The notes beneath the pieces were generated by a model that was not told where the DNA came from, did no database searches, and saw only the letters and a list, made by a program, of their open reading frames with translations. A stretch of DNA of 64,000 bases from Bacillus multifaciens (lineage in GTDB: Bacteria; Bacillota; Bacilli; Bacillales; Bacillaceae_G): the NCBI RefSeq assembly GCF_030756675.1, contig NZ_JAVBXD010000006.1:1-64000 (forward strand). Reading direction: 5' to 3'. Numbering within the stretch: position 1 is the stretch's first letter; each line of letters begins with the position of its first letter. Below are positions 6,300-59,283 of the stretch, in pieces. The translations under genes were made by a program, and so were the position numbers.

Positions 6300-7769
6300 A
6301 TGACAATGGAAAATCAAACAAATTATAAAACTCTTCAGATTTGGATTAAAAAAGGACATCGTATGTATTCTTATTTTCAAGAATCTTGCCAAAACGCTAA
6401 AAATATGTACAACACGACAAACTTTTATATACGACAAGTGTATACAGGTTTGACACAAGATAAAGAATTGCAACTTTTACAAAAAGAAGTTTTGGATACA
6501 ATTGATAAAAACATGGGGAAGATGAATAATACACAACTTCTTGCCTATCAAAAGAAATTGGAAAAAGAGAAAACAAAGCCAAAAGAAAAACAAAAAGAAG
6601 TGAAATGTAATTTGTTTTCAGAACCAACTACAGAAAAACCTTATGTAGATTATAATTTTCTAGATGCATTATTTAAAGCGATGATGCAGAAAGATTATCG
6701 TGCTTTGCCTACGCAATCTAGTCAATCCATCATGAAAAATGTATTCCAAAATTGGAAGTCTTTTTTCGCTAGTTTAAAAAATTATAAAAAGAATCCCAAC
6801 AAATATACTGGAAAACCTAGAATTCCAAAGTATATTCGTTCTTCTGAAAAGGAAATCTTGTATACCAATCAAGATTGTGTCATTAAAAATGATAAGTTTT
6901 TAAAGTTTCCAAAGACAAAATTGCAATTAAACATTGGGAAATTGGAGTTTACTGAAGGGAAACTGAAGCAAGTTCGTGTGATCCCAAAATACAATGGATA
7001 TGTGGTAGAGTTAGTGATAGATGTTCCTTCAGAACAACAACCCATTGAAGAGAATGGTCGTTATATGAGTATTGATTTAGGGATTGATAACCTTGCAACC
7101 ATTGTAACAAACACAGGTATGAAGCCTGTACTTGTTAAGGGCAAGCATGTCAAAAGCATAAATCAATATTACAATAAAATGAAGAGCCATTTTACAAGTG
7201 TTTTAAGGCAAGGTAAACAAACAAATAAAGGCTCTTTTACTTCTAAAAGAATAGAAAAACTTCATCAAAAGCGTTACCTGAAAATAAAAGACATCTTCCA
7301 TAAGGCTAGCCATCATATTGTAAAACTAGCTCAAGAAGAGGAAGTTTGTAAAATCGTTATTGGTCAAAACAAAAGTTGGAAACAAGAAACTGATATGGGA
7401 AAGAAAAATAACCAAACATTTTGCCATATCTCACATCGTTTATTGATTCAAATGATTACATACAAAGCAAATGCGGTAGGTATTCAAGTTGTTGTAACCG
7501 AGGAGTCTTACACATCAAAAGCAAGTTTTCTAGATCATGACTTTATTCCAATGTATGGTACAAATAACCAAAATGTAACTTTTTTAGGAAAACGAATGAA
7601 GCGTGGTATGTATCGTTCTGCAAAAGGAATCGAAATCAACGCAGACGTAAACGCTGCGGCTAATATTTTACGAAAAGTAGTCCCGAATGCATGGACAGAC
7701 GGGATAGAGGGGTTAGGCGTGAAACAGCTCGCTAGTGTGTTAACTCCACTGACGTTAATCGTCCGTTAG
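6300..7769 (+). CDS. tnpB: TnpB, RNA-guided nuclease of IS605 family
   Basis: This 489-residue OrfB/TnpB protein belongs to a family of RuvC nucleases guided by an RNA made from the element's 3' end. The RuvC-I Asp is D259 in SIDLGIDNLAT and the RuvC-III Asp is D449 in NADVNAAANI. At the usual RuvC-II position the motif is VIGQNKSWKQE (from about residue 353), with Gly/Gln instead of the canonical Glu. A Glu pair (E401/E402, TEESYTSKAS) lies further on. The zinc-ribbon cysteines normal for TnpB between RuvC II and III are absent. AAGGAGGTG lies at ideal spacing before the ATG. The gene appears intact. Confidence 0.9.
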   Translation: MTMENQTNYKTLQIWIKKGHRMYSYFQESCQNAKNMYNTTNFYIRQVYTGLTQDKELQLLQKEVLDTIDKNMGKMNNTQLLAYQKKLEKEKTKPKEKQKEVKCNLFSEPTTEKPYVDYNFLDALFKAMMQKDYRALPTQSSQSIMKNVFQNWKSFFASLKNYKKNPNKYTGKPRIPKYIRSSEKEILYTNQDCVIKNDKFLKFPKTKLQLNIGKLEFTEGKLKQVRVIPKYNGYVVELVIDVPSEQQPIEENGRYMSIDLGIDNLATIVTNTGMKPVLVKGKHVKSINQYYNKMKSHFTSVLRQGKQTNKGSFTSKRIEKLHQKRYLKIKDIFHKASHHIVKLAQEEEVCKIVIGQNKSWKQETDMGKKNNQTFCHISHRLLIQMITYKANAVGIQVVVTEESYTSKASFLDHDFIPMYGTNNQNVTFLGKRMKRGMYRSAKGIEINADVNAAANILRKVVPNAWTDGIEGLGVKQLASVLTPLTLIVR

Positions 7770-27137: not shown

Positions 27138-27962
27138 TTAATTAGAGATTTGCTTCGTTTGCTTTTGTGTAAAAAACCATTCCGTTCCAAAATCAACGAC
27201 TTCTCGTTGCTTCATTAATTTACATGATGCGTTCCCTATTTTTCCAAATATAACTGATCCGGTTTCATCAAATGCTTTTCCTAATGGCTCAAAATCATCA
27301 GAATCATAATCAAATTCCTCATACTCTTTCCATATGCGAGCTCCATTTTCGATAATCGGTGCTCCAATTTGGACTGTTTCTCGATATTGCGAACGAACTT
27401 CAGATAAATGAAGTGATGTATTCGAATCATGATCTACTCCGATTAATAAAATATATCCATCTAAATCATACATTTTTCCCAAAGGTGACTGTTCTCCAAA
27501 ACTAGGAGTAAGGATGTGATCATCAATAATTTGTTTTGCGTGTTTCCCCCACGCTGCAAAGCTATGTAACGGATGATTACTTCTTTTTGTATTTGGATAT
27601 GTCCGAAAACACTCCACTATTTTCCCCATACTTCGCGTTGGTGTTGTTTCCGGATGAAACGGTGGTACATTGTCACGAATAATTTCCCACCAACTTTCTG
27701 GGACAGGTGGCATTTGCCAATTTTTCGGATCAGACAAATCACTTGTTTGAGTTGGCATAATGATTGTTCCTTCTTCTGTAACTACTTCCATTAAAGCTTC
27801 TACTACCGCCAAAGCCCCACCACTTACCCAACCAATCGAACTAAGTGATGAGTGTACAATAACGTTCATTCCTTCTGTAACACCTAATTTTCGTAAATCG
27901 CTTACAATTGTATGAATTGTATTTGGCATTTTTGTTTTTGCGATTAAATCGTTTATGCTCAT
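27138..27962 (-). CDS. AAC(3)-family N-acetyltransferase (YokD-like)
   Basis: This 274-residue protein belongs to the aminoglycoside 3-N-acetyltransferase family, which transfers acetyl from acetyl-CoA. It has the family pattern [25 protein letters not shown], the [11 protein letters not shown] motif with conserved His, and [17 protein letters not shown]. Relatives in B. anthracis (BA2930) and B. subtilis (YokD) have been studied structurally and their natural substrates are unclear. The ATG at 27962 follows GAGGGG. It is first of four genes spaced by 12, 26 and 14 bp. Confidence 0.85.
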
Positions 27963-28079
27963 AATAAATCCCCTCGTACCTTCTAATAAAATTTCTTTTA
28001 TCTTCCATTTATATATTATCATATTTTTCTTAATTTTTAATCTTTAAAAAAGGGACTACCTTTTACCATAAACAGAAAA

Positions 28080-38612: not shown

Positions 38613-39440
38613 ATGCGTAACAAATCATCTCTTGTAACTTTATTTAAAAGAACTCTTATTATGTGTGTAGGAATATCATGCATATACGGTGTGTCTACCA
38701 AATCGAGTCACATTGTAAAAGCTAGTACGGACGATTCTCCACAATCTGTTCAGCTAGTAAGCGAAATACAAACTGCACTAGCTCCAAAGGAGACACCGGA
38801 ACAATACAATGGTCAAGTTAGAAAAGTAGCTTATCTTACTTTTGACGATGGACCAGGAAAGTATACTGCTCAATTATTGGATATATTAAAACAAAATGAT
38901 GCGAAAGCTACTTTTTTCCTTATTGGCTCTAATGTTAAAGAATATCCAAATTTAGTAAAACGCGAATTAGCAGAAGGTCACTATGTCGGCATGCATAGTA
39001 TGTCACATGATTTCGCGAAGCTATACAAGCAAGGCGGTTATGTGAACGAAATGAAAGAAGATCAAAAGTTAATTGCTAATATAATCGGACGAGATCCAAA
39101 ATTAACACGTCCACCATACGGTTCTATGCCAGGCCTAAATGAAGCATTACGAAATCAAGTCGCTGAAAATGGTTTGCGAGTATGGGACTGGACTATCGAT
39201 TCTTTAGATTGGAAGTATAATAAAATGCCAGTGGATGCTGCTTCTACTAAAATTGTAGAAAATGTAATTGCAGGTGCAAAAACGAACAAAGAAGTAATCC
39301 TACTTCATGATATTCACCCACAATCTGTTTCTGCCGTATCTGCTATTATTAAAGGGTTAAAAGAAAAAGGCTATGAGTTTGAAAGTTATAATGAAAATGA
39401 GCATTTCGAATTAAACTTTTGGCATGATAAACGAATTTAA
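38613..39440 (+). CDS. Polysaccharide (peptidoglycan-type) deacetylase
   Basis: This 275-residue protein has an N-terminal signal sequence (LFKRTLIMCVGISCIYGV), then a NodB domain. It has TFDDGPGKYT with the catalytic/metal Asp pair, HSMSHD (metal His), RPPYGS, the DWTIDSLDW motif and LLHDIH, so all catalytic motifs of carbohydrate esterase family 4 are present. The ATG at 38613 follows GAAGG; an ATG 11 codons earlier is weaker. Paralogues in B. anthracis deacetylate cell-wall GlcNAc. It is a single gene with its own terminator. Confidence 0.9.
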   Translation: MRNKSSLVTLFKRTLIMCVGISCIYGVSTKSSHIVKASTDDSPQSVQLVSEIQTALAPKETPEQYNGQVRKVAYLTFDDGPGKYTAQLLDILKQNDAKATFFLIGSNVKEYPNLVKRELAEGHYVGMHSMSHDFAKLYKQGGYVNEMKEDQKLIANIIGRDPKLTRPPYGSMPGLNEALRNQVAENGLRVWDWTIDSLDWKYNKMPVDAASTKIVENVIAGAKTNKEVILLHDIHPQSVSAVSAIIKGLKEKGYEFESYNENEHFELNFWHDKRI

Positions 39441-39449
39441 TATAAATAA

Positions 39450-39486
39450 AAGGGCTGATTTCTACATCTTAAGAATCAGCCCTTTT
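39450..39486 (+). terminator. Terminator after deacetylase gene
   Basis: AAGGGCTGATT pairs with AATCAGCCCTT and is followed by TT. Confidence 0.8.
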
Positions 39487-39717
39487 ATAATTAAAGTATG
39501 CTCCATTATATGAAAATGTAGTTTTGTATTATAGTTTGATAAAAAATGACGCTACTAACTCTTATAAGACAGCAAATAAAAAAGAATCCATTTTGAAAAT
39601 ATAGATGTGATATTTATCAAATAGTTTAACGTAATTCCGAAAAAAGTCCCCATCTTCAAGCGCGTAACGCGCAAGAGCCCAACAGTAAGGTAGGGATGAA
39701 TTTCAGTTAGGCATCGC

Positions 39718-40965
39718 CTAACTGATTTGTAAGAACTGCCAATTGTTCGTATGGTGTATACGTTCTATATCTGATATCTTTACTTGCTTATAAGATTTAG
39801 CTGGATTTTGTATATATTGTCCATCGATATCTTGTACGTATACCATTTTCCCTGTAAATCCTGTCACAAATCCTACTTGTCCAAATACTTTCACTTTATC
39901 TCCTAAGTAGATTCCATCTACATACGGTGTGTTTTTCTTGTTCCGTTTTGCACTTGTATTCTTTATTTTCTTGCCTTTTCTTGCAGTTGCTTCATGTAGG
40001 GAACGCTTTTTCTTTCTAAATTGCTTGATGCGAAATTCACCACTTTGATCATATTCTTGCAAATATTTGGGACTTGTAATCGCAATTGCGTCATTTATAT
40101 GTGTTTTTGATAAACCTAATTCTTTTCGTTTTGGTGTTGTGTAGCTGCCATACGTAGTGTCACAATCTAAACGATTCATGATTTGTAACCGCAATATATT
40201 CATAAAGGCTGTCTCTTTATATTGTTTTGGCTTCTTAAAAACATGTTTAAGTTTCCCTTGATGAAATTTTTGATGACATTCATCATGTACGGTTACGAGG
40301 TTATCTGCCATATCCGAACCACCATTGCATCGTTCGATGATATGATGCGTATGCAAGATGCCACCTTGTTTCTTACAAATTTGACAGGTGTAATTGTCTC
40401 TTGCGAATACATAATATCTAGTATTCCAAAAACCAAAAGCATCTCCTTGTTGGTATTCTGTTCCTTGTATATCGGGATTTTTTAGCTTTTGGGCATCAAA
40501 CTTTCCTACTTCGACAATCACTTTTGGCGAAGATAAGAGTGACTTGAATGTTTCAATCCAATGAATTTGATTATCTACTTTGCTTTGAATCGATGGAGGC
40601 AACCATCCTTTTTTCTTTTTTCGATTGAGAAAACGCGCTTTGCGATACCTTATTTTTCGCTGTCTTCTTCCTCTGCGTAATGCAGCTCTTAGTGTGAGAT
40701 TTTCTTTGACGTCCTGACGTAACTGGATGGTTCCTTTTGCTAACACATTGTTTTCAGTGGTAATCGCAATGCCGATATGCTTTACTCCGCTGTCAACACC
40801 GATTGTAACGGGCTGCACCGCTTCACCTGTGGCATATTGCAATTGAATTGTAAACGGAGTGTATCCAATAATCTTTGCTTTTCCTTGTTTGAGAAGAAGC
40901 CTAGCCTTACGAGGACTACAAGGCATAAGTGGTTCTCCTCTTAAATTCTTAACAAATACACGCAT
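39718..40965 (-). CDS. iscB: IscB, RNA-guided RuvC-HNH nuclease
   Basis: This 415-residue protein has the IscB domain order. The N-terminal PLMP-like motif (EPLMPCSPRKARLLLKQGKA) is followed by RuvC-I Asp58 (GVDSGVKHIG), an Arg-rich bridge helix (about 93-115) and RuvC-II Glu152 (VIVEVGKFD). The HNH domain (about 190-235) has Cys194-x2-Cys197, His207/208 and the ending CHQKFH; RuvC-III has His289/Asp292 (HINDAI). All catalytic residues are present. IscB is the ancestor of Cas9 and cuts DNA guided by an omega-RNA, encoded here just upstream. AGGAGGG precedes the ATG. Confidence 0.93.
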   Translation of the reverse strand: MRVFVKNLRGEPLMPCSPRKARLLLKQGKAKIIGYTPFTIQLQYATGEAVQPVTIGVDSGVKHIGIAITTENNVLAKGTIQLRQDVKENLTLRAALRRGRRQRKIRYRKARFLNRKKKKGWLPPSIQSKVDNQIHWIETFKSLLSSPKVIVEVGKFDAQKLKNPDIQGTEYQQGDAFGFWNTRYYVFARDNYTCQICKKQGGILHTHHIIERCNGGSDMADNLVTVHDECHQKFHQGKLKHVFKKPKQYKETAFMNILRLQIMNRLDCDTTYGSYTTPKRKELGLSKTHINDAIAITSPKYLQEYDQSGEFRIKQFRKKKRSLHEATARKGKKIKNTSAKRNKKNTPYVDGIYLGDKVKVFGQVGFVTGFTGKMVYVQDIDGQYIQNPAKSYKQVKISDIERIHHTNNWQFLQIS

Positions 40966-40974
40966 GTTTTGTCC

Positions 40975-41195
40975 CTCCTAAGAGTTTGTTTCCCTTCGCC
41001 AATGTTTGTAGGTGTTGGCAACTTCTTATACAAGAAGGCTTGTGGTTGACCGTTCCTTCCCAATCAGAACTGCTACAGAGCCACCATAGAGCCAAGAACT
41101 AGGGAATTATTCTTGGGTATGCAACCTACGAACGGAGTCCACGAAAGACTGTGGCTAGACAACCAAGGCTTTTTTTAAGCCCCCACTTCAAAACG
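40975..41195 (-). ncRNA. IscB omega-RNA scaffold
   Basis: The 230-bp region between the sigma gene stop and iscB is rich in paired segments on the minus strand: CCAAGAA/TTCTTGG, CTTCTTGTATAAGAAG and TTGCCAAC/ATTGGCGA, plus an AAGCCTTGGTTGTCTAGCC 5' part. This position and architecture are those of known IscB omega-RNAs. The guide would be read from the sequence beyond the element end (the sigma gene 3' part, from about 41219 upward). Confidence 0.75.
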
Positions 41196-41197
41196 TG

Positions 41198-42088
41198 TTA
41201 GCGTTTAAGTGGTGGGTAGTTGACCTTTTCAGGATTTAACACGATATAAATAGATATAATTTTATTCCCATCAAACCTAAAGCTCATTACCGCTTGCATT
41301 CCAGTACAATTTGTGATTACAATTCCAGGAGAGCCATTTACCCTTGTTTGTATTATAGAATATTCATCTTGATTCGCAAGGAATTTTTTTGCTAAAACAA
41401 TAAGAAGTTTTTGTACACGCACTGCCCCATAAACAGGTTTAGCTGCAGCGGTTACTTTGCCGCCGCCATCTGCATAATATGCGATGTCTTTCCCTAGAAC
41501 TTCCATCATCTGATTTGTATTTCCCTGCTGAATAGCGTTTATAAAACATGTAATGACTTGTTCGTGATCTTCTTTCACAGTTTCGACCACAATTTGCTTT
41601 TCAAGTTCTGGAAGCTCCTTTTTTATCCTACTTAAGATTTTACGGCAATTTGCTTCTTTTTTCTGTACAATTTCAGCAATCGTTTCATAGTCATATTCCA
41701 AAATTTCACGGAGTATAAAAATAGCTCTTTCAATTGGATTCAATTGTTCAAATAATACAAGCAAAGCATATGACATATCATTTTTCATCATCATTTCTTG
41801 TAATGGATCTGCTTCAATTGCTGCAATTGGTTCTGGTAGCCATGTCCCCACATATAACTCTCGTTTTTTCTTAGAAGACTTCAACATATCTAAACAACGA
41901 TTGGTAACTAATTTACACAAAAATGCTTTTACATTTTTGCTGTGCTTCAATTCGTATTCATTCAACTTTATAAATACATCTTGTATAACATCTTCTGTAT
42001 CAGCAATACTACCAGTCATTTTATAAGCAAGTGAGAAAAGAAGAGATTTATACTCAATATATAATTGACTTAGTTCAGCGTTTTCCAT
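41198..42088 (-). CDS. ECF41-type sigma factor, 3' end rewritten by IS
   Basis: This 296-residue sigma factor has region 2 (SLLFSLAYKMTGSIADTEDVIQDVFIK), region 4 (LNPIERAIFILREI) and a C-terminal SnoaL-like domain. WLPEP, DGGGK and NPEKV (for NPDKL) are the signature motifs of the ECF41 group, in which the C-terminal domain regulates activity. After NPEKV the last codons (NYPPLKR) come from the end of the inserted IscB element, so the natural tail is replaced. A FAD-dependent oxidoreductase gene lies directly upstream, the usual ECF41 partnership with a redox enzyme. Confidence 0.88.
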   Translation of the reverse strand: MENAELSQLYIEYKSLLFSLAYKMTGSIADTEDVIQDVFIKLNEYELKHSKNVKAFLCKLVTNRCLDMLKSSKKKRELYVGTWLPEPIAAIEADPLQEMMMKNDMSYALLVLFEQLNPIERAIFILREILEYDYETIAEIVQKKEANCRKILSRIKKELPELEKQIVVETVKEDHEQVITCFINAIQQGNTNQMMEVLGKDIAYYADGGGKVTAAAKPVYGAVRVQKLLIVLAKKFLANQDEYSIIQTRVNGSPGIVITNCTGMQAVMSFRFDGNKIISIYIVLNPEKVNYPPLKR

Positions 42089-42125
42089 TGAAAAAAATCC
42101 TCACCTTCTATTTCATTCGGCACAA

Positions 42126-43307
42126 TTAGACAAGTAAACTAGCTTGATTCCATGTTCGTTCTCGTATACGAGAACCTATTTTACCCGATAAAATGAAATC
42201 AAGTCCCCATTTTTGAACCCAAACAAATCCATTGTTAGGTCCAAGACTAATACAATATAATTTGACAGGATAAGGTTTATGAATAATAGAGTTAGATACT
42301 CCATATATCTCATTCTTTAAAATTTTACTTAATCTCGTCGCCTGAGGAATCGCTTCTTTACACGTCATTCCATCTACTTGTTTTGTTTTTTTATCAACAA
42401 CTCTTGCACAGTCTCCGATTGCGTATATATGTGAATACCCTTTTATAGAATACGTATCAGTAACTAATATTTGGTTCTCATTAGATAACGGAAGATTAAA
42501 TGTTTGAATAATCGGATTCACTTTAACCCCCGGTGTCCAAATACACTCTCCTACTGTATATGTTGTTCCATTTGTACAAACTAACTGACCATTTTCAAAT
42601 TTCATCACTCTCGTTTTAGAGATGCATTTTATTCCGATTTTTTTGAGTTCATATGTTAATCGGTCACTTACTTTTACCGGAACCCCTCGTAATAAATGTT
42701 CTTTTGAATCAAATAAAATGACTTCTACCTCAGCTGGATTAAGTCCTACTTTTTGAACTTCTCCTTTAAACCAAACACATATTTCTGCAGAAGTCTCAAT
42801 ACCAGTAATCCCTCCGCCTACAATCGCGATGCGCAATAGTTCTCGCCTTACTTCTTTATTTTCTTCTATTTTTGCTAGTTGAATTAAAGAAAGCAATTTT
42901 TGTCTTATCTCTATAGCGGTCTTCGTACTACTTAATGTTGTTCCGCCTAACGTACTAGGAATTTCTTGAATGACACTCCCTAGTGCTAATACAAGATAAT
43001 CGTATTGCACTGTTTTTATTCTTTCATCTTCTAATTTTATGTCTATTTCTTTTTTAGAATGATTACACGTTATCGCTTCTCCCTTTATAAATTCCATTCC
43101 ATCTGTACAATACCTCTTTAATGGAACTTTTAAATCCGCATCTTCAACCACTGACTTAAACAATAAAACCTTCCGAAAATGAAACGAACTTTTATCCACT
43201 AACGTAATTTTCACTTCTTTTCCTAGTGAAATACCTAATTCTTTTTTTAATCCATTTAATAAATTAATACCAGCAAATCCTCCGCCTAATATAACAATAT
43301 GTTTCAT
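42126..43307 (-). CDS. NADH dehydrogenase-like FAD oxidoreductase
   Basis: This 393-residue protein has the FAD-binding HIVILGGGFAGINLL, a second NAD(P) Rossmann motif IAIVGGGITGIETSAE and the IGDCARV motif near the C-terminus, the pattern of type II NADH dehydrogenase-like enzymes. The ATG at 43307 is preferred because AAGGGGG precedes it at 7 bp. It lies 37 bp ahead of the ECF41-type sigma factor gene and is its likely partner. The electron acceptor is unknown. Confidence 0.85.
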   Translation of the reverse strand: MKHIVILGGGFAGINLLNGLKKELGISLGKEVKITLVDKSSFHFRKVLLFKSVVEDADLKVPLKRYCTDGMEFIKGEAITCNHSKKEIDIKLEDERIKTVQYDYLVLALGSVIQEIPSTLGGTTLSSTKTAIEIRQKLLSLIQLAKIEENKEVRRELLRIAIVGGGITGIETSAEICVWFKGEVQKVGLNPAEVEVILFDSKEHLLRGVPVKVSDRLTYELKKIGIKCISKTRVMKFENGQLVCTNGTTYTVGECIWTPGVKVNPIIQTFNLPLSNENQILVTDTYSIKGYSHIYAIGDCARVVDKKTKQVDGMTCKEAIPQATRLSKILKNEIYGVSNSIIHKPYPVKLYCISLGPNNGFVWVQKWGLDFILSGKIGSRIRERTWNQASLLV

Positions 43308-43394
43308 TTTCATTCCCCCTTTACCCTTAAAACGATTCGATTTATTTACTTGTGACATTTTAAAAGGAGAATTTATAAAAAAGAGTACAAAAAA

Positions 43395-53368: not shown

Positions 53369-53628
53369 AAAAAAACCCCTACTGATTTCGTTCAGTAGGG
53401 GCGACAATACGCGCGGTACCACCCTAGTTATAGACAAAAATGTCTACCTCTTTTTATTGTTAACGATCATTTTGACCGTCTTTCCCTTTATAAAAACTTT
53501 CGTCTTTACTACGAAAAAGATGCTCCAGGGGTGTAATTCACACATATCTTTGTACTGATTTCCACCAACCATCAGCTCTCTGCAACAAGAAAATACATGC
53601 TACTGCTTCCCTATCAACGCAATAGTTA
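53369..53628 (-). promoter_or_regulatory. Tyr T-box riboswitch, internal (aroG-aroC)
   Basis: The T-box motif AGGGTGGTACCGCG (53412-53425) precedes a CCCCTACTGA/TCAGTAGGGG terminator with T-run. Stem I holds the GAGAGC and GGTTGG blocks and the specifier-loop GAATTAC, which places UAC (53533-53535, Tyr) as specifier. It begins right after the aroG stop, with no room for an obvious promoter of its own, so it acts on read-through transcripts from aroG and gates aroC-hisC-tyrA-aroA. Confidence 0.85.
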
Positions 53629-54831: not shown

Positions 54832-55088
54832 AAAAAACCCCTACTGATCCAATCAGTAGGGACGATTATTATCGCGGTACCACCCTAGTTGCAGACACAT
54901 TTGTCTACCTCTCTTTATTGTTAACGATCGTTTTGACCGTCTTTCCCTTCATAAAGACTTCTGCCTTTACTACGAAAAAGATGCTCCAGGATTGTAATTC
55001 ATGTTTGTTTATGTACTAGTTCACACCAACCACCAGCTCTCTGTTACAGGGAAACAACCACTACTCTCTTTCCTATCATTGCGCTTAT
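54832..55088 (-). promoter_or_regulatory. Tyr T-box riboswitch, second in tandem
   Basis: The T-box motif lies at 54873-54886, with the terminator CCCTACTGATTGGATCAGTAGGG and T-run downstream. The specifier-loop GAATTAC gives UAC (54994-54996). It is nearly identical in sequence to the T-box just upstream, a recent duplication, and lies immediately before aroG. Confidence 0.88.
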
Positions 55089-55120: not shown

Positions 55121-55388
55121 AAAAAATCCCTACTGATCCAATCAGTAGGGACGATTATTATCGCGGTACCACCCTAGTTGTAGACACATTTGTCTACCTC
55201 TCTTCATTGTTAACGATCATTTTGACCGTCTTTCCCTTCATAAAGACTTCTGTCTTGACTACGAAAAAGATGCTCCAGGACTGTAATTCACGTTTACCTT
55301 TGTACTGATTTCCACCAACCATCAGCTCTCTATAACAGGGAGATAAACACTACTTTGTTCCCTTCAATGCATTGTTTTTATTAAGTAT
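55121..55388 (-). promoter_or_regulatory. Tyr T-box riboswitch, first in tandem
   Basis: The T-box motif lies at 55162-55175 and is followed by the CCCTACTGA/TCAGTAGGG terminator with T-run. The specifier-loop GAATTAC gives UAC (55283-55285). It starts just after the operon promoter, so it is the first checkpoint of the aro transcript. Confidence 0.88.
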
Positions 55389-55473: not shown

Positions 55474-58400
55474 TCAAAATAGCAAATGTGAATCATTTTC
55501 ATTTCGATTAATCATTCCTATTCGCATTATCTCATTTTGAATACGTTCAAGTAACGTATTTTCAAGCTTCATCTCATCAAACAATAACCAAAGATGAATC
55601 ACTTCATTTTCAATACACTCTGCATCATTTATCTTTGTTAATAAAACAAAAAATAATGTTGCATATACTTTAGAATTTTGATGGATTAGCTCATTTTTTT
55701 CCAACAGCTGTTTCAATAACTCCTTCAATGCTTGTTTTTCTTCTTGCAATGAAGTTATAGAAAAATAAGATAAAACAGTTTCAATCCCTTTTTCAGCAAT
55801 AACATCCATGTATAACACAAACCGCAAAAAGATAATATATTCTTTCTCTGCTATTATACTCATTTTAGGGCGTTCTACTAAAAAATCTGCAAGCCAATTT
55901 CGCCAAAATTTTTGTTGTTCTTTTATGCTCAAACTTTTTACATAATACGAGACATTTTCTACAAACTTTACCTTCTCTACCTCTTCTCCCTGTATAAAAA
56001 GAGTGTTCAACCAATCAAGTTGTTTATCCCAATATAAAATACACTTTAAAAAGACGAGACTTAACCATTTCATAAATACTTCTTGTGTTTGTTTATTCAA
56101 TAAATGTAAATATCGAACAGCAAAAGCAATATATTTCTTTGTTTGTATAAATAAAGGCAAATTAATTTGCGTATTTACAAACCCTGCCCATGCATACTTT
56201 GTTTCCTCTTCATTTTGTTGCAAATCTAAATAAGGAATCATATGCTTTCTACACCAGTGCTTCTCGATATGATAGAGAAATGTTAAATCTGCTGTTAGCC
56301 TCGCAATCATAATATTTACGTAGTATGATTTTTTCCGCATTTGCTCTTCAAATACATACAAATAAGCATGTATATTTCGATCATATAAATGTTCATATGC
56401 TAGAAGTTTTAACAAAACTGCTGTTGTTTTCCCTACCGGATGCTGAGCAGCCTCATTATAATAATCTACTTGCTCTTTACTTCCTGCGTGCTCTCCTTTC
56501 ATAACATGAGGAAACATCGAAAAAGCAAGCTGTTTTATTGCTCGAATTGTTTCTTCTTGAAATTCAGCTAATTGATTGCTCTTTTCATACAGAAAACTAC
56601 TAATAATCCAATGATAAGTAGCATGCCTTACAAATTGATGTAGTAATGGTAAAAGCTCTTGCATCTGTTTATCTGTTAATTTTCGATTATTTCGCCACTC
56701 TCTTATGAATACAAACCATACTTCTTTACTCACTTCTTTATACTTAACTAATTGATACGCAAGAGAAATACTCCACTGTACATTTGTTTTACAAGCCTTT
56801 GAAAGCATTTCTAAAAAATGATGTTTCTCAAACAATCCTTCTTGTGAATATTGAAGTACTTGCCTTATCATTTCTTCCTCTTTCATATGTAACAAACCAT
56901 CAGTTGTTAAATTACATGTAATTGTTTGTAATGTCCGCTCTTCTTGTAAATCAGGAAACTGCCTCGATAAAAAATGAGGGAATTTTTGTTTCATAAATTC
57001 ATATGTTCGTTTCGTTCGTTCATTAGTTGGATCGCACATATATAGCCAATCGATTAAGTTACAAGCCAGATAACACGTCTTTTCTTCAAACTGCTTCTCT
57101 ATAGTTGTCAGCACTTTTTGTTTCGTATGTTCAGATACATGCTCATAATGATTCTTTAACAATTGAAACACTTCATGCTTACAGGAGTCTTCAGTTAGCA
57201 TTTGATGTTGTAACAACCATTCTATTTTCTCATTTTGCGTTCGGAAAACCGTATGGTTCATACTATGCACTGCAATTCGTTTTTGCAGCGTATTTCCAAA
57301 TTCCATCATAAAAGAAATATAAAAGTTTGCTTTATCTTCGAAATGGACACAAACATAGTCCATACAATCTCTAACAATATTAATTAAAAAAGAAAATCCA
57401 CGAGGTTGGCTATCTTGCTCATGCGGTTCAATTGCACTTCGCGATTCACTAACTGAATCATGGATTTGAAGTGCCTGTTGTTTTAGTCCTAATCTCTGTA
57501 GTTTTTCTAATCCAACTTGCAAAATCGGAATCGAAAAATAAGAAAGATGTGGTTTTATTTTCACTTCCCATATGTGCTGCATCTTTGAAAAGGTTGTATC
57601 TGACAAATGGTTTGTTTCCGCTAACTCTACAACATCCTGCATTTCTGGTTCCCATTGCCGAAGTCGCTTCAATTTTAGTTTTCCGTCTAATATGCAAGTA
57701 AATAAAAGAACTATAATTTCTTTATGTTTCGGGTACGTACATTTATGAAGCAAAGAAGGCAGATTTTCTATAAAAAACTCATTTTCCCTCGCCTTTTCTA
57801 ACAATAATAAGAGCCACTTCGCAAACGTATCCATATGTATCGGTTGTTCCATATCCACTAAAAATGTACATATCGTATTCCATAACAAGGCAGATATTTC
57901 TGTATTATTTTTATACATCAACTGAAATAATTCATTTTGATGACTTACTAAAAAATGATCAACAATCCACTTTGCAAGCAACTGATCTTTTTCGGAAGTC
58001 TCAGCTTCCTCCGAAAATAAATTCCGCAATTGCCCGTCTTTTTCTAACCATTCTACCCATTCGTAGTCTCTTGCAAATTCAACAAAGTAACGAAGTGTCT
58101 CAATCTTTTTTATTGATTGTTTAACATAAGACAACTGTTCTTGTTCTAAAGATGGTGGAACCGTTACAATATCACGAATTCGTGTTCTCTTTGTAATATA
58201 ATTATCCCCCATTAACTCTGCCCATCGCTGCACTGCTTTTGCTAATGATTGATGATTTTGCGACTTATTCGGATAGACAATAGGCTTAATCCCTAAATGC
58301 TCCCAGTGATATGTATTATCCCCCTGAGCAACAAACGCATACCGCCTCGTACTTGGTGGTAATCCAGTTGCTAAGTACTTCATAACAGGGTCATTATGAC

Positions 58401-58989
58401 TATATCCAATAAACAAAACTGTATAATTAGAAAATAAATCAACTAAAAATCGTCTTGCCCATCCTTCTGTTAAGTAAGCCCTTCCAAAATCACCATCAGT
58501 CAAAATTAAATTTTCTTCTTCTTGTTCTACATTCCCATGAATATATGCCAACCCTTTAAATGCTCTTCCCGTTGGAAGCGCCGGAGCGTAATATATATTT
58601 GCTTTACGTTTTGATTCCTCAATTACCGTTGAAAAATGCCGATCAAAATTTGTAGTTACAATCCGAACATTTTCATCAACTGAAAATAATTGTAAAATAG
58701 AATAGTGTAATGGATTTGGCTTTGAATCTGCTACATGAACAAGATTCTTCGCAATCTGATGAACATCTTTCGTTTTTGCAATTTTCCCAAGATAATAATC
58801 GTGCGGTTCATTTTCCTCACGTTTGTCTACATATAGTGCATTCGCAATATCATCCACTAAATCATCAAAATTTGGTAAGTTTGAATTGCCTTTCATAGAT
58901 ACTCCAGCTCCAACAAATAAAACCAGTTTTCCTTGTTCGAATTTATCAAATAGTTCATCTGGAATTTCTACCTCTGAAGTAATCCACAC
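55474..58989 (-). CDS. SIR2-domain defence-associated sirtuin-like protein
   Basis: This 1171-residue protein has an N-terminal SIR2 domain with LFVGAGVS (27-31), TTNFD (113-116), the catalytic-type His of YIHGN (151) and FIGYSHNDP (195-200), an NAD-binding set typical of anti-phage NADases. The remaining 900 residues are helical and not recognised in detail, resembling the long C-terminal part of the defence-associated sirtuins (DSR1/DSR2, SIR2-DUF4020). The GTG at 58989 was chosen, 7 bp after AAGGGGGG. In this class the SIR2 part is thought to deplete NAD on phage sensing. It is a single gene next to core metabolism. Confidence 0.8.
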   Translation of the reverse strand: MWITSEVEIPDELFDKFEQGKLVLFVGAGVSMKGNSNLPNFDDLVDDIANALYVDKREENEPHDYYLGKIAKTKDVHQIAKNLVHVADSKPNPLHYSILQLFSVDENVRIVTTNFDRHFSTVIEESKRKANIYYAPALPTGRAFKGLAYIHGNVEQEEENLILTDGDFGRAYLTEGWARRFLVDLFSNYTVLFIGYSHNDPVMKYLATGLPPSTRRYAFVAQGDNTYHWEHLGIKPIVYPNKSQNHQSLAKAVQRWAELMGDNYITKRTRIRDIVTVPPSLEQEQLSYVKQSIKKIETLRYFVEFARDYEWVEWLEKDGQLRNLFSEEAETSEKDQLLAKWIVDHFLVSHQNELFQLMYKNNTEISALLWNTICTFLVDMEQPIHMDTFAKWLLLLLEKARENEFFIENLPSLLHKCTYPKHKEIIVLLFTCILDGKLKLKRLRQWEPEMQDVVELAETNHLSDTTFSKMQHIWEVKIKPHLSYFSIPILQVGLEKLQRLGLKQQALQIHDSVSESRSAIEPHEQDSQPRGFSFLINIVRDCMDYVCVHFEDKANFYISFMMEFGNTLQKRIAVHSMNHTVFRTQNEKIEWLLQHQMLTEDSCKHEVFQLLKNHYEHVSEHTKQKVLTTIEKQFEEKTCYLACNLIDWLYMCDPTNERTKRTYEFMKQKFPHFLSRQFPDLQEERTLQTITCNLTTDGLLHMKEEEMIRQVLQYSQEGLFEKHHFLEMLSKACKTNVQWSISLAYQLVKYKEVSKEVWFVFIREWRNNRKLTDKQMQELLPLLHQFVRHATYHWIISSFLYEKSNQLAEFQEETIRAIKQLAFSMFPHVMKGEHAGSKEQVDYYNEAAQHPVGKTTAVLLKLLAYEHLYDRNIHAYLYVFEEQMRKKSYYVNIMIARLTADLTFLYHIEKHWCRKHMIPYLDLQQNEEETKYAWAGFVNTQINLPLFIQTKKYIAFAVRYLHLLNKQTQEVFMKWLSLVFLKCILYWDKQLDWLNTLFIQGEEVEKVKFVENVSYYVKSLSIKEQQKFWRNWLADFLVERPKMSIIAEKEYIIFLRFVLYMDVIAEKGIETVLSYFSITSLQEEKQALKELLKQLLEKNELIHQNSKVYATLFFVLLTKINDAECIENEVIHLWLLFDEMKLENTLLERIQNEIMRIGMINRNENDSHLLF

Positions 58990-59283
58990 ACCCGATCCCC
59001 CCTTACCTAAAAATGTTAATTCCCTCTTTCTAATATAACATTTTCTTTGTTTTTTTAACATTCAGAAAAGTGAAAGATAACAAACGATTAACTTTTTCTT
59101 GTAATTTTTTCTTGAAATTACAAGAAACTCAGGAAATAAAATACGCACTAAAAACATTTGAGTTATCATTACGTATTTATCCTCCGTCTTTTTAGAAAAC
59201 ACCTTACAAATTGCATCTTGAATTTCCCATGCATAAAGTCCCTATTTTCATTCAAACTAAATAGAAAAAGAGAGGTTCCAATA

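Follow-up and report, generated by a model that had tools for sequence, protein, structure and literature searches.

The window, comprising the first 64,000 nucleotides of contig NZ_JAVBXD010000006.1 of Bacillus multifaciens, contains an IscB–ωRNA element, one end of which falls within the final codons of a same-strand gene for an ECF41-type sigma factor, as the initial annotation had claimed. On the minus strand, the order is oxidoreductase gene, sigma gene, HEARO/ωRNA and iscB (Table 1). We consider it probable that this transposase-less element is expressed by read-through from the invaded operon and that guide-directed cleavage retains it at this site. The locus shows a low-harm mode of entry into coding sequence, in which a short in-frame tail and a stop codon are brought along. 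In addition, a guide at the 5′ end needs transcription from outside, and the promoter of the invaded operon is a clear candidate.

Table 1 Features of the IscB locus and its operon, in window coordinates.
Feature	Position	Strand	Basis
TTAA, predicted target/TAM motif, host DNA	39626–39629	−	Matching place in related copies; sister site
IscB–ωRNA element, 1,595 bp	39630–41224	−	Flanks of related copies and sister-element empty site
iscB, 415 aa, RuvC and HNH residues present	39718–40965	−	ORF, profile searches, structure alignment
ωRNA scaffold (HEARO, RF02033), 5′ end = element end	40984–41224	−	Covariance-model match
Element-encoded sigma end, VNYPPLKR + stop	41198–41224	−	Reading frame
ECF41-type sigma factor gene, 296 aa	41198–42088	−	ORF, profile and structure searches
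Predicted 16-nt guide, sigma coding strand through K of NPEK	41225–41240	−	Directly 5′ of HEARO
Oxidoreductase ORF (Pyr_redox_2) preceding sigma; start probably at 43313 or 43307	42126–43358	−	ORF, Pfam
ECF41-like promoter TGTCACA-n16-CGTT, one base off CGTC	43331–43357	−	Pattern search; same pattern before homologous operon

The IscB protein scored 361.6 bits against the NCBIfam model guided_IscB (NF040563, cut-off 175) and matched the Pfam domains RRXRR and HNH. Its PLMP motif lies at residue 12, the RuvC residues are D58, E152, H289 and D292, and the HNH histidines occupy positions 207–208, bearing out the earlier reading of a complete IscB with all RuvC and HNH residues. The catalytic stretches align with the IscB chains of solved structures. 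The RNA-guided architecture is common to the window protein and to IsrB and OgeuIscB, both of known structure, although the sequences are distant; IsrB carries a linker in place of the HNH domain that IscB has. A single HEARO match above the gathering score was found in the window, directly upstream of iscB, covering model positions 1–211 of 211 with 93.2 bits (gathering score 83, E-value 1e-17 for the whole window). The “structured 220-nt region” described earlier upstream of IscB was thus correct as to structure, but its length required correction to a HEARO scaffold of 241 nt. As in known IscB–ωRNA (OMEGA) systems, the window element combines PLMP, RuvC and HNH with HEARO directly upstream, a guide in the 5′ flank and an NTRA-type motif directly 3′ of the target. 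We observed no basic difference from these systems: the TTAA motif occurs at several close copies, and several other copies are likewise in phase at a gene end. As an element, it stays within the IscB kind already known.

To place the ends, related copies were collected from two sources: 57 loci in genome contigs, roughly half of which match the HNH part only, and Bacilli genomes, where at least 49 HEARO places were found in 31 of 398 genomes with up to five candidates scored per genome; 40 of these were taken into the comparison. The copies gave as candidate boundaries a GTCAAC start and, on the iscB side, the TTAA, TTGA or ATGA that follows a hairpin region common to close copies. The HEARO model fixed the 5′ end of 40 copies; 34 of these begin with GTCA, 16 of them with GTCAAC, and the bases preceding GTCA are unrelated between distinct insertions. 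Fourteen further regions comprised the sigma region of genome G670 and 13 element loci, of which ten yielded a start in a search for GTCAAC and three did not (L297, L299 and L300). The resulting 54 starts consist of the 40 model-placed and ten motif-placed ones together with L126, L128, L003 and the window; the motif-placed starts are circular as evidence for GTCAAC, whereas the 40 model-placed starts are not.

A direct view of the boundaries came from a sister element in genome G523, situated where an acetyltransferase gene ends. Eight of 13 further genomes from the genus share this gene end; the element is absent from seven of the eight (L373–L379) and present in one (L372). The empty sites pass from the guide side directly into ATGA- or ATGG-type sequence, with L378 aligned one base off. 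The filled copy reads ...ATGAGC/GTCAAC...AAG/ATGAACG, so that the ATGAACG of the empty sites stands directly behind the element. Its 3′ flank agrees with the empty loci over some bases only, and farther out it aligns with L373, L374, L375 and L377 only past a gap of ~55 bases. Because the empty sites join the guide side to the motif, we take GTCAAC as the first bases of the element and the ATGA-type motif as host DNA. By analogy, the window element would span the interval given in Table 1, with TTAA outside it; the extent of 39645–41240 proposed in the initial annotation was right about the presence of an element but is shifted at both ends by the comparison of copies. No empty site of the window locus was found among the genomes compared, in which the nearest sigma homologue is 57% identical.

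No transposase gene was recognized inside the element, whose ORFs of at least 60 aa are iscB and one antisense ORF of 87 aa only, and a simple HUH motif scan detected no TnpA in the window. TnpA is reported to accompany only a few IscB loci (PMC9755519), and transposase-less loci are the usual state. IS200/IS605-type ends lacking a target duplication and lying beside a short fixed motif were seen at the sister element, and in the window by end comparison only. As judged from sequence, the ends and insertion behavior appear to resemble those of the IS200/IS605 group, yet without TnpA the element is not a full member. A plasmid search with positions 39300–42400 returned no match.

The invaded gene encodes a sigma factor that scored 292.6 bits against NF007214 (SigJ subfamily, cut-off 271) and 322.4 bits against TIGR02957, just under the cut-off of 323.25. 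Besides sigma2, sigma4 and the C-terminal extension, the protein contains the WLPEP and DGGGK motifs. The first base of the element falls in phase 0 of the gene at residue 289, the last host codon being K288 of NPEK, and its first 27 bases supply the final sigma codons and the stop. The tail had initially been described as replaced after NPEKV by NYPPLKR; the replacement holds, but the boundary lies one residue earlier, as the valine is also element-encoded. The next triplet past the element, TTA, would encode leucine, the residue that 24 of 36 relatives carry at that place; this supports the boundary only. With Ecf41Bli and SigJ (5xe7), the window sigma shares the domains, WLPEP, DGGGK, NPEK, the oxidoreductase–sigma order and an ECF41-like promoter, but it alone derives its last eight residues from a transposon end. 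Bacillus subtilis is reported to have no ECF41 sigma factor (PMC3426412).

We compared this C-terminus with those of 36 homologous sigma loci, which are the best matches rather than a random sample, two genomes contributing two loci each. All 36 contain NP[DEN]K[LIV], with leucine in 24, isoleucine in 11 and valine in one, followed by 3–15 residues; the window sigma has valine at that place and then seven residues. The element-type C-terminus occurs in none of the 36, so the occurrence in relatives lacking the element that the initial annotation had named as speaking against its reading was not seen among these loci. The nearest homologue, in genome G670, ends in NPDKLKVH. A search of the genome contigs with the sigma protein gave no match.

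The predicted guide lies directly 5′ of HEARO, at the length of ~16 nt that IscB is reported to require (PMC9640706), and consists of the sigma gene’s own 3′ coding sequence; the initial annotation’s proposal to this effect is borne out as a prediction. No further site matching the guide with up to three mismatches was found elsewhere in the window. The TAMs described for studied relatives are NTGA, TTGA and ATGA for IsrB, with a preference for NTG(A), and NNRR for OgeuIscB. By analogy, these are compatible with the motifs found 3′ of the window element and of sister elements, the TTAA of the window fitting the NNRR type only. Like IscB, TnpB–ωRNA systems take their guide from the flank, but they carry it at the element’s 3′ end, as opposed to the 5′ end in IscB. 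Since the guide precedes the scaffold, the promoter of an IscB RNA must lie outside the element, in the host.

No exact match to the ECF41 consensus TGTCACA-n15-17-CGTC was found in the window, and up to two mismatches gave nine matches against a chance mean of 8.06. The lone one-mismatch site, at 43331–43357 on the minus strand, sits immediately ahead of where the oxidoreductase gene probably starts. When the −10 part was widened to CGTY, a pattern picked after the site had been seen, this site was the sole exact match, and three sites had up to one mismatch, where chance predicts a mean of 1.27. The CGTY pattern also occurs before the homologous G670 operon, as the one match in 10 kb; 32 of 200 shuffles contained at least one. 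The site draws its weight from its place and from the recurrence of the pattern before the G670 operon. Published work on ECF41 lists CGTT and TGTT as −10 variants and describes, for 97 of 107 loci with that gene order, promoters ahead of the oxidoreductase-type gene (PMC3426412). On the minus strand, the stretch from the sigma gene to iscB showed no terminator-like site; the G670 operon differs in that its sigma gene is followed by an inverted repeat and by a run of T. With an ECF41-like promoter ahead and no terminator-like site before the ωRNA, read-through could express it, and we infer that this is its likeliest source. A sigma-70-like match within the sigma gene (41379–41352, minus strand) is an alternative candidate promoter.

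To see how such elements sit relative to host genes, we examined 47 insertions including the window, after removing duplicates (L261, L264, L269 and L295), loci with an unclear start (L280 and L286) and one with a short flank (L003); neighbor genes were ORFs of at least 80 aa, greedily picked. The upstream neighbor is co-directional in 34 insertions and opposed in 13 (p = 0.003). On the 3′ side, 39 of 48 elements had an iscB and 37 had a neighbor ORF; 25 of these 37 ORFs are co-directional. Within 100 nt, Pfam supports 18 of 22 co-directional neighbors (window included) and three of seven opposed ones. Twelve co-directional ORFs end inside the first bases of the element and two exactly at its edge, while two opposed ORFs overlap that edge. 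For the response regulator of L253, the AraC-type regulator of L298 and the acetyltransferase of L293, the Pfam match reaches the model end, and for the SH3 protein of L126 it almost does; a transposase zinc-ribbon gene (L275) and a glucosaminidase gene (L279) look truncated. Because in-frame tails recur at other IscB insertions, the arrangement is not peculiar to the sigma gene.

As a control, 40 TnpB loci were hand-picked at one to three per genome; 31 have a co-directional upstream neighbor, a count that unrecognized TnpA genes may inflate, and they do not differ from IscB (p = 0.63). The idea that retention behind co-directional genes is specific to IscB through its 5′ guide was consequently rejected, and we do not claim that the bias reflects selection for transcribing the guide. 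Among the genome contigs, the nearest IscB copies (L001–L004, 62–69% identical) lie on short contigs with the name prefix Meg22 that were binned as Deltaproteobacteria and Woesearchaeota, reflecting either a binning error or transfer. One locus (L136) contains two consecutive iscB genes, with identities to the query of 28% and 44%. Another genome has two copies (L134 and L139), with an iscB frame of 771 codons in the former and a stop at 417 in the latter.

Taken together, the reading we favor is that the element entered the last codons of the ECF41 sigma gene in sense orientation, directly ahead of TTAA, and that the sigma factor would retain its entire regulatory domain and differ slightly in its tail. 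Transcription of the oxidoreductase–sigma operon would continue into the element, yielding a transcript in which the last 16 host bases of the sigma gene, after processing, serve as guide, followed by the scaffold and iscB. IscB and ωRNA would then cut chromosomes carrying the uninterrupted site, where the guide match is followed by TTAA, and spare their own copy, where it is followed by GTCA. Such cleavage may retain the element at its site following excision, and a retention role has been proposed for TnpB–ωRNA in a preprint (PMC11870625). Two points hold our confidence in this account at probable: the promoter pattern was widened only once the site had been seen, and the account overlaps with a reading of the locus as a silent remnant.

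On that second reading, which we hold to be unlikely, a transposase-less IscB copy is little transcribed and cuts nothing. The lack of TnpA would fit, whereas the intact iscB with its catalytic residues, the RNA that fits the full model and the preservation of both ends argue against it. Co-option of IscB by the host, to act on the sigma gene as a regulatory or defense module, seems very improbable: the co-directional, operon-like place of IscB behind an ECF41-like promoter would suit such a role, but both nuclease sites are intact, the transposon ends are kept, and the element-type tail, seen in none of the 36 homologous loci, gives no sign of a conserved arrangement.

The initial annotation had also suggested that the insertion alters sigma activity. 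In its developed form, the swapped NPDKL end and tail would change autoinhibition, so that the oxidoreductase operon, and hence iscB, is mis-regulated. The boundary does fall inside NPDKL, described as the link of the C-terminal domain to the sigma2–sigma4 linker (PMC7730460), and C-terminal truncation changes ECF41 activity, with strong activation reported for proteins shortened to 204 and 206 residues (PMC3426412); the window sigma retains 296. Against this, the element-supplied valine also occurs at that place in one of the 36 homologous loci, the tail of seven residues lies within their range, and several other IscB insertions end genes likewise, the Pfam domains there being matched in full at the end. 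The suggestion was therefore not borne out, and we regard mis-regulation as quite unlikely. With an allowed motif and a tail of normal length, a large effect on the sigma factor is not indicated by the sequence; a subtle one is possible, because the boundary lies inside NPDKL. Slightly more doubtful still is a single loop in which the nuclease would be under the control of a sigma factor whose restraining NPDKL it had rewritten, while ωRNA from the regulator’s mRNA would be aimed at uninterrupted regulator genes.

Elsewhere in the window, a second RNA-guided nuclease, TnpB, is encoded at 6300–7769 on the plus strand (guided_TnpB, 174.7 bits, cut-off 100). A gene at 55474–59061 (minus strand) encodes a protein of 1195 aa with a SIR2-like N-terminal part, related to the anti-phage protein Dsr1 at 263.5 bits against an equivalog cut-off of 1400, and the product of 27138–28022 (minus strand) is related to aminoglycoside 3-N-acetyltransferases below the cut-off (191.5 versus 270). 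A deacetylase gene that adjoins the element has a close relative among solved structures, and an upstream ABC-type ATPase ORF reaches up to 83% identity to genomes of a family represented by 19 in the comparison; the sequence thus resembles that of the Bacillus group. Three T-box leaders lie on the minus strand at 53394–53626, 54855–55088 and 55144–55376, two of them close together, and the genes around them resemble, by eye, those of aromatic amino-acid synthesis.
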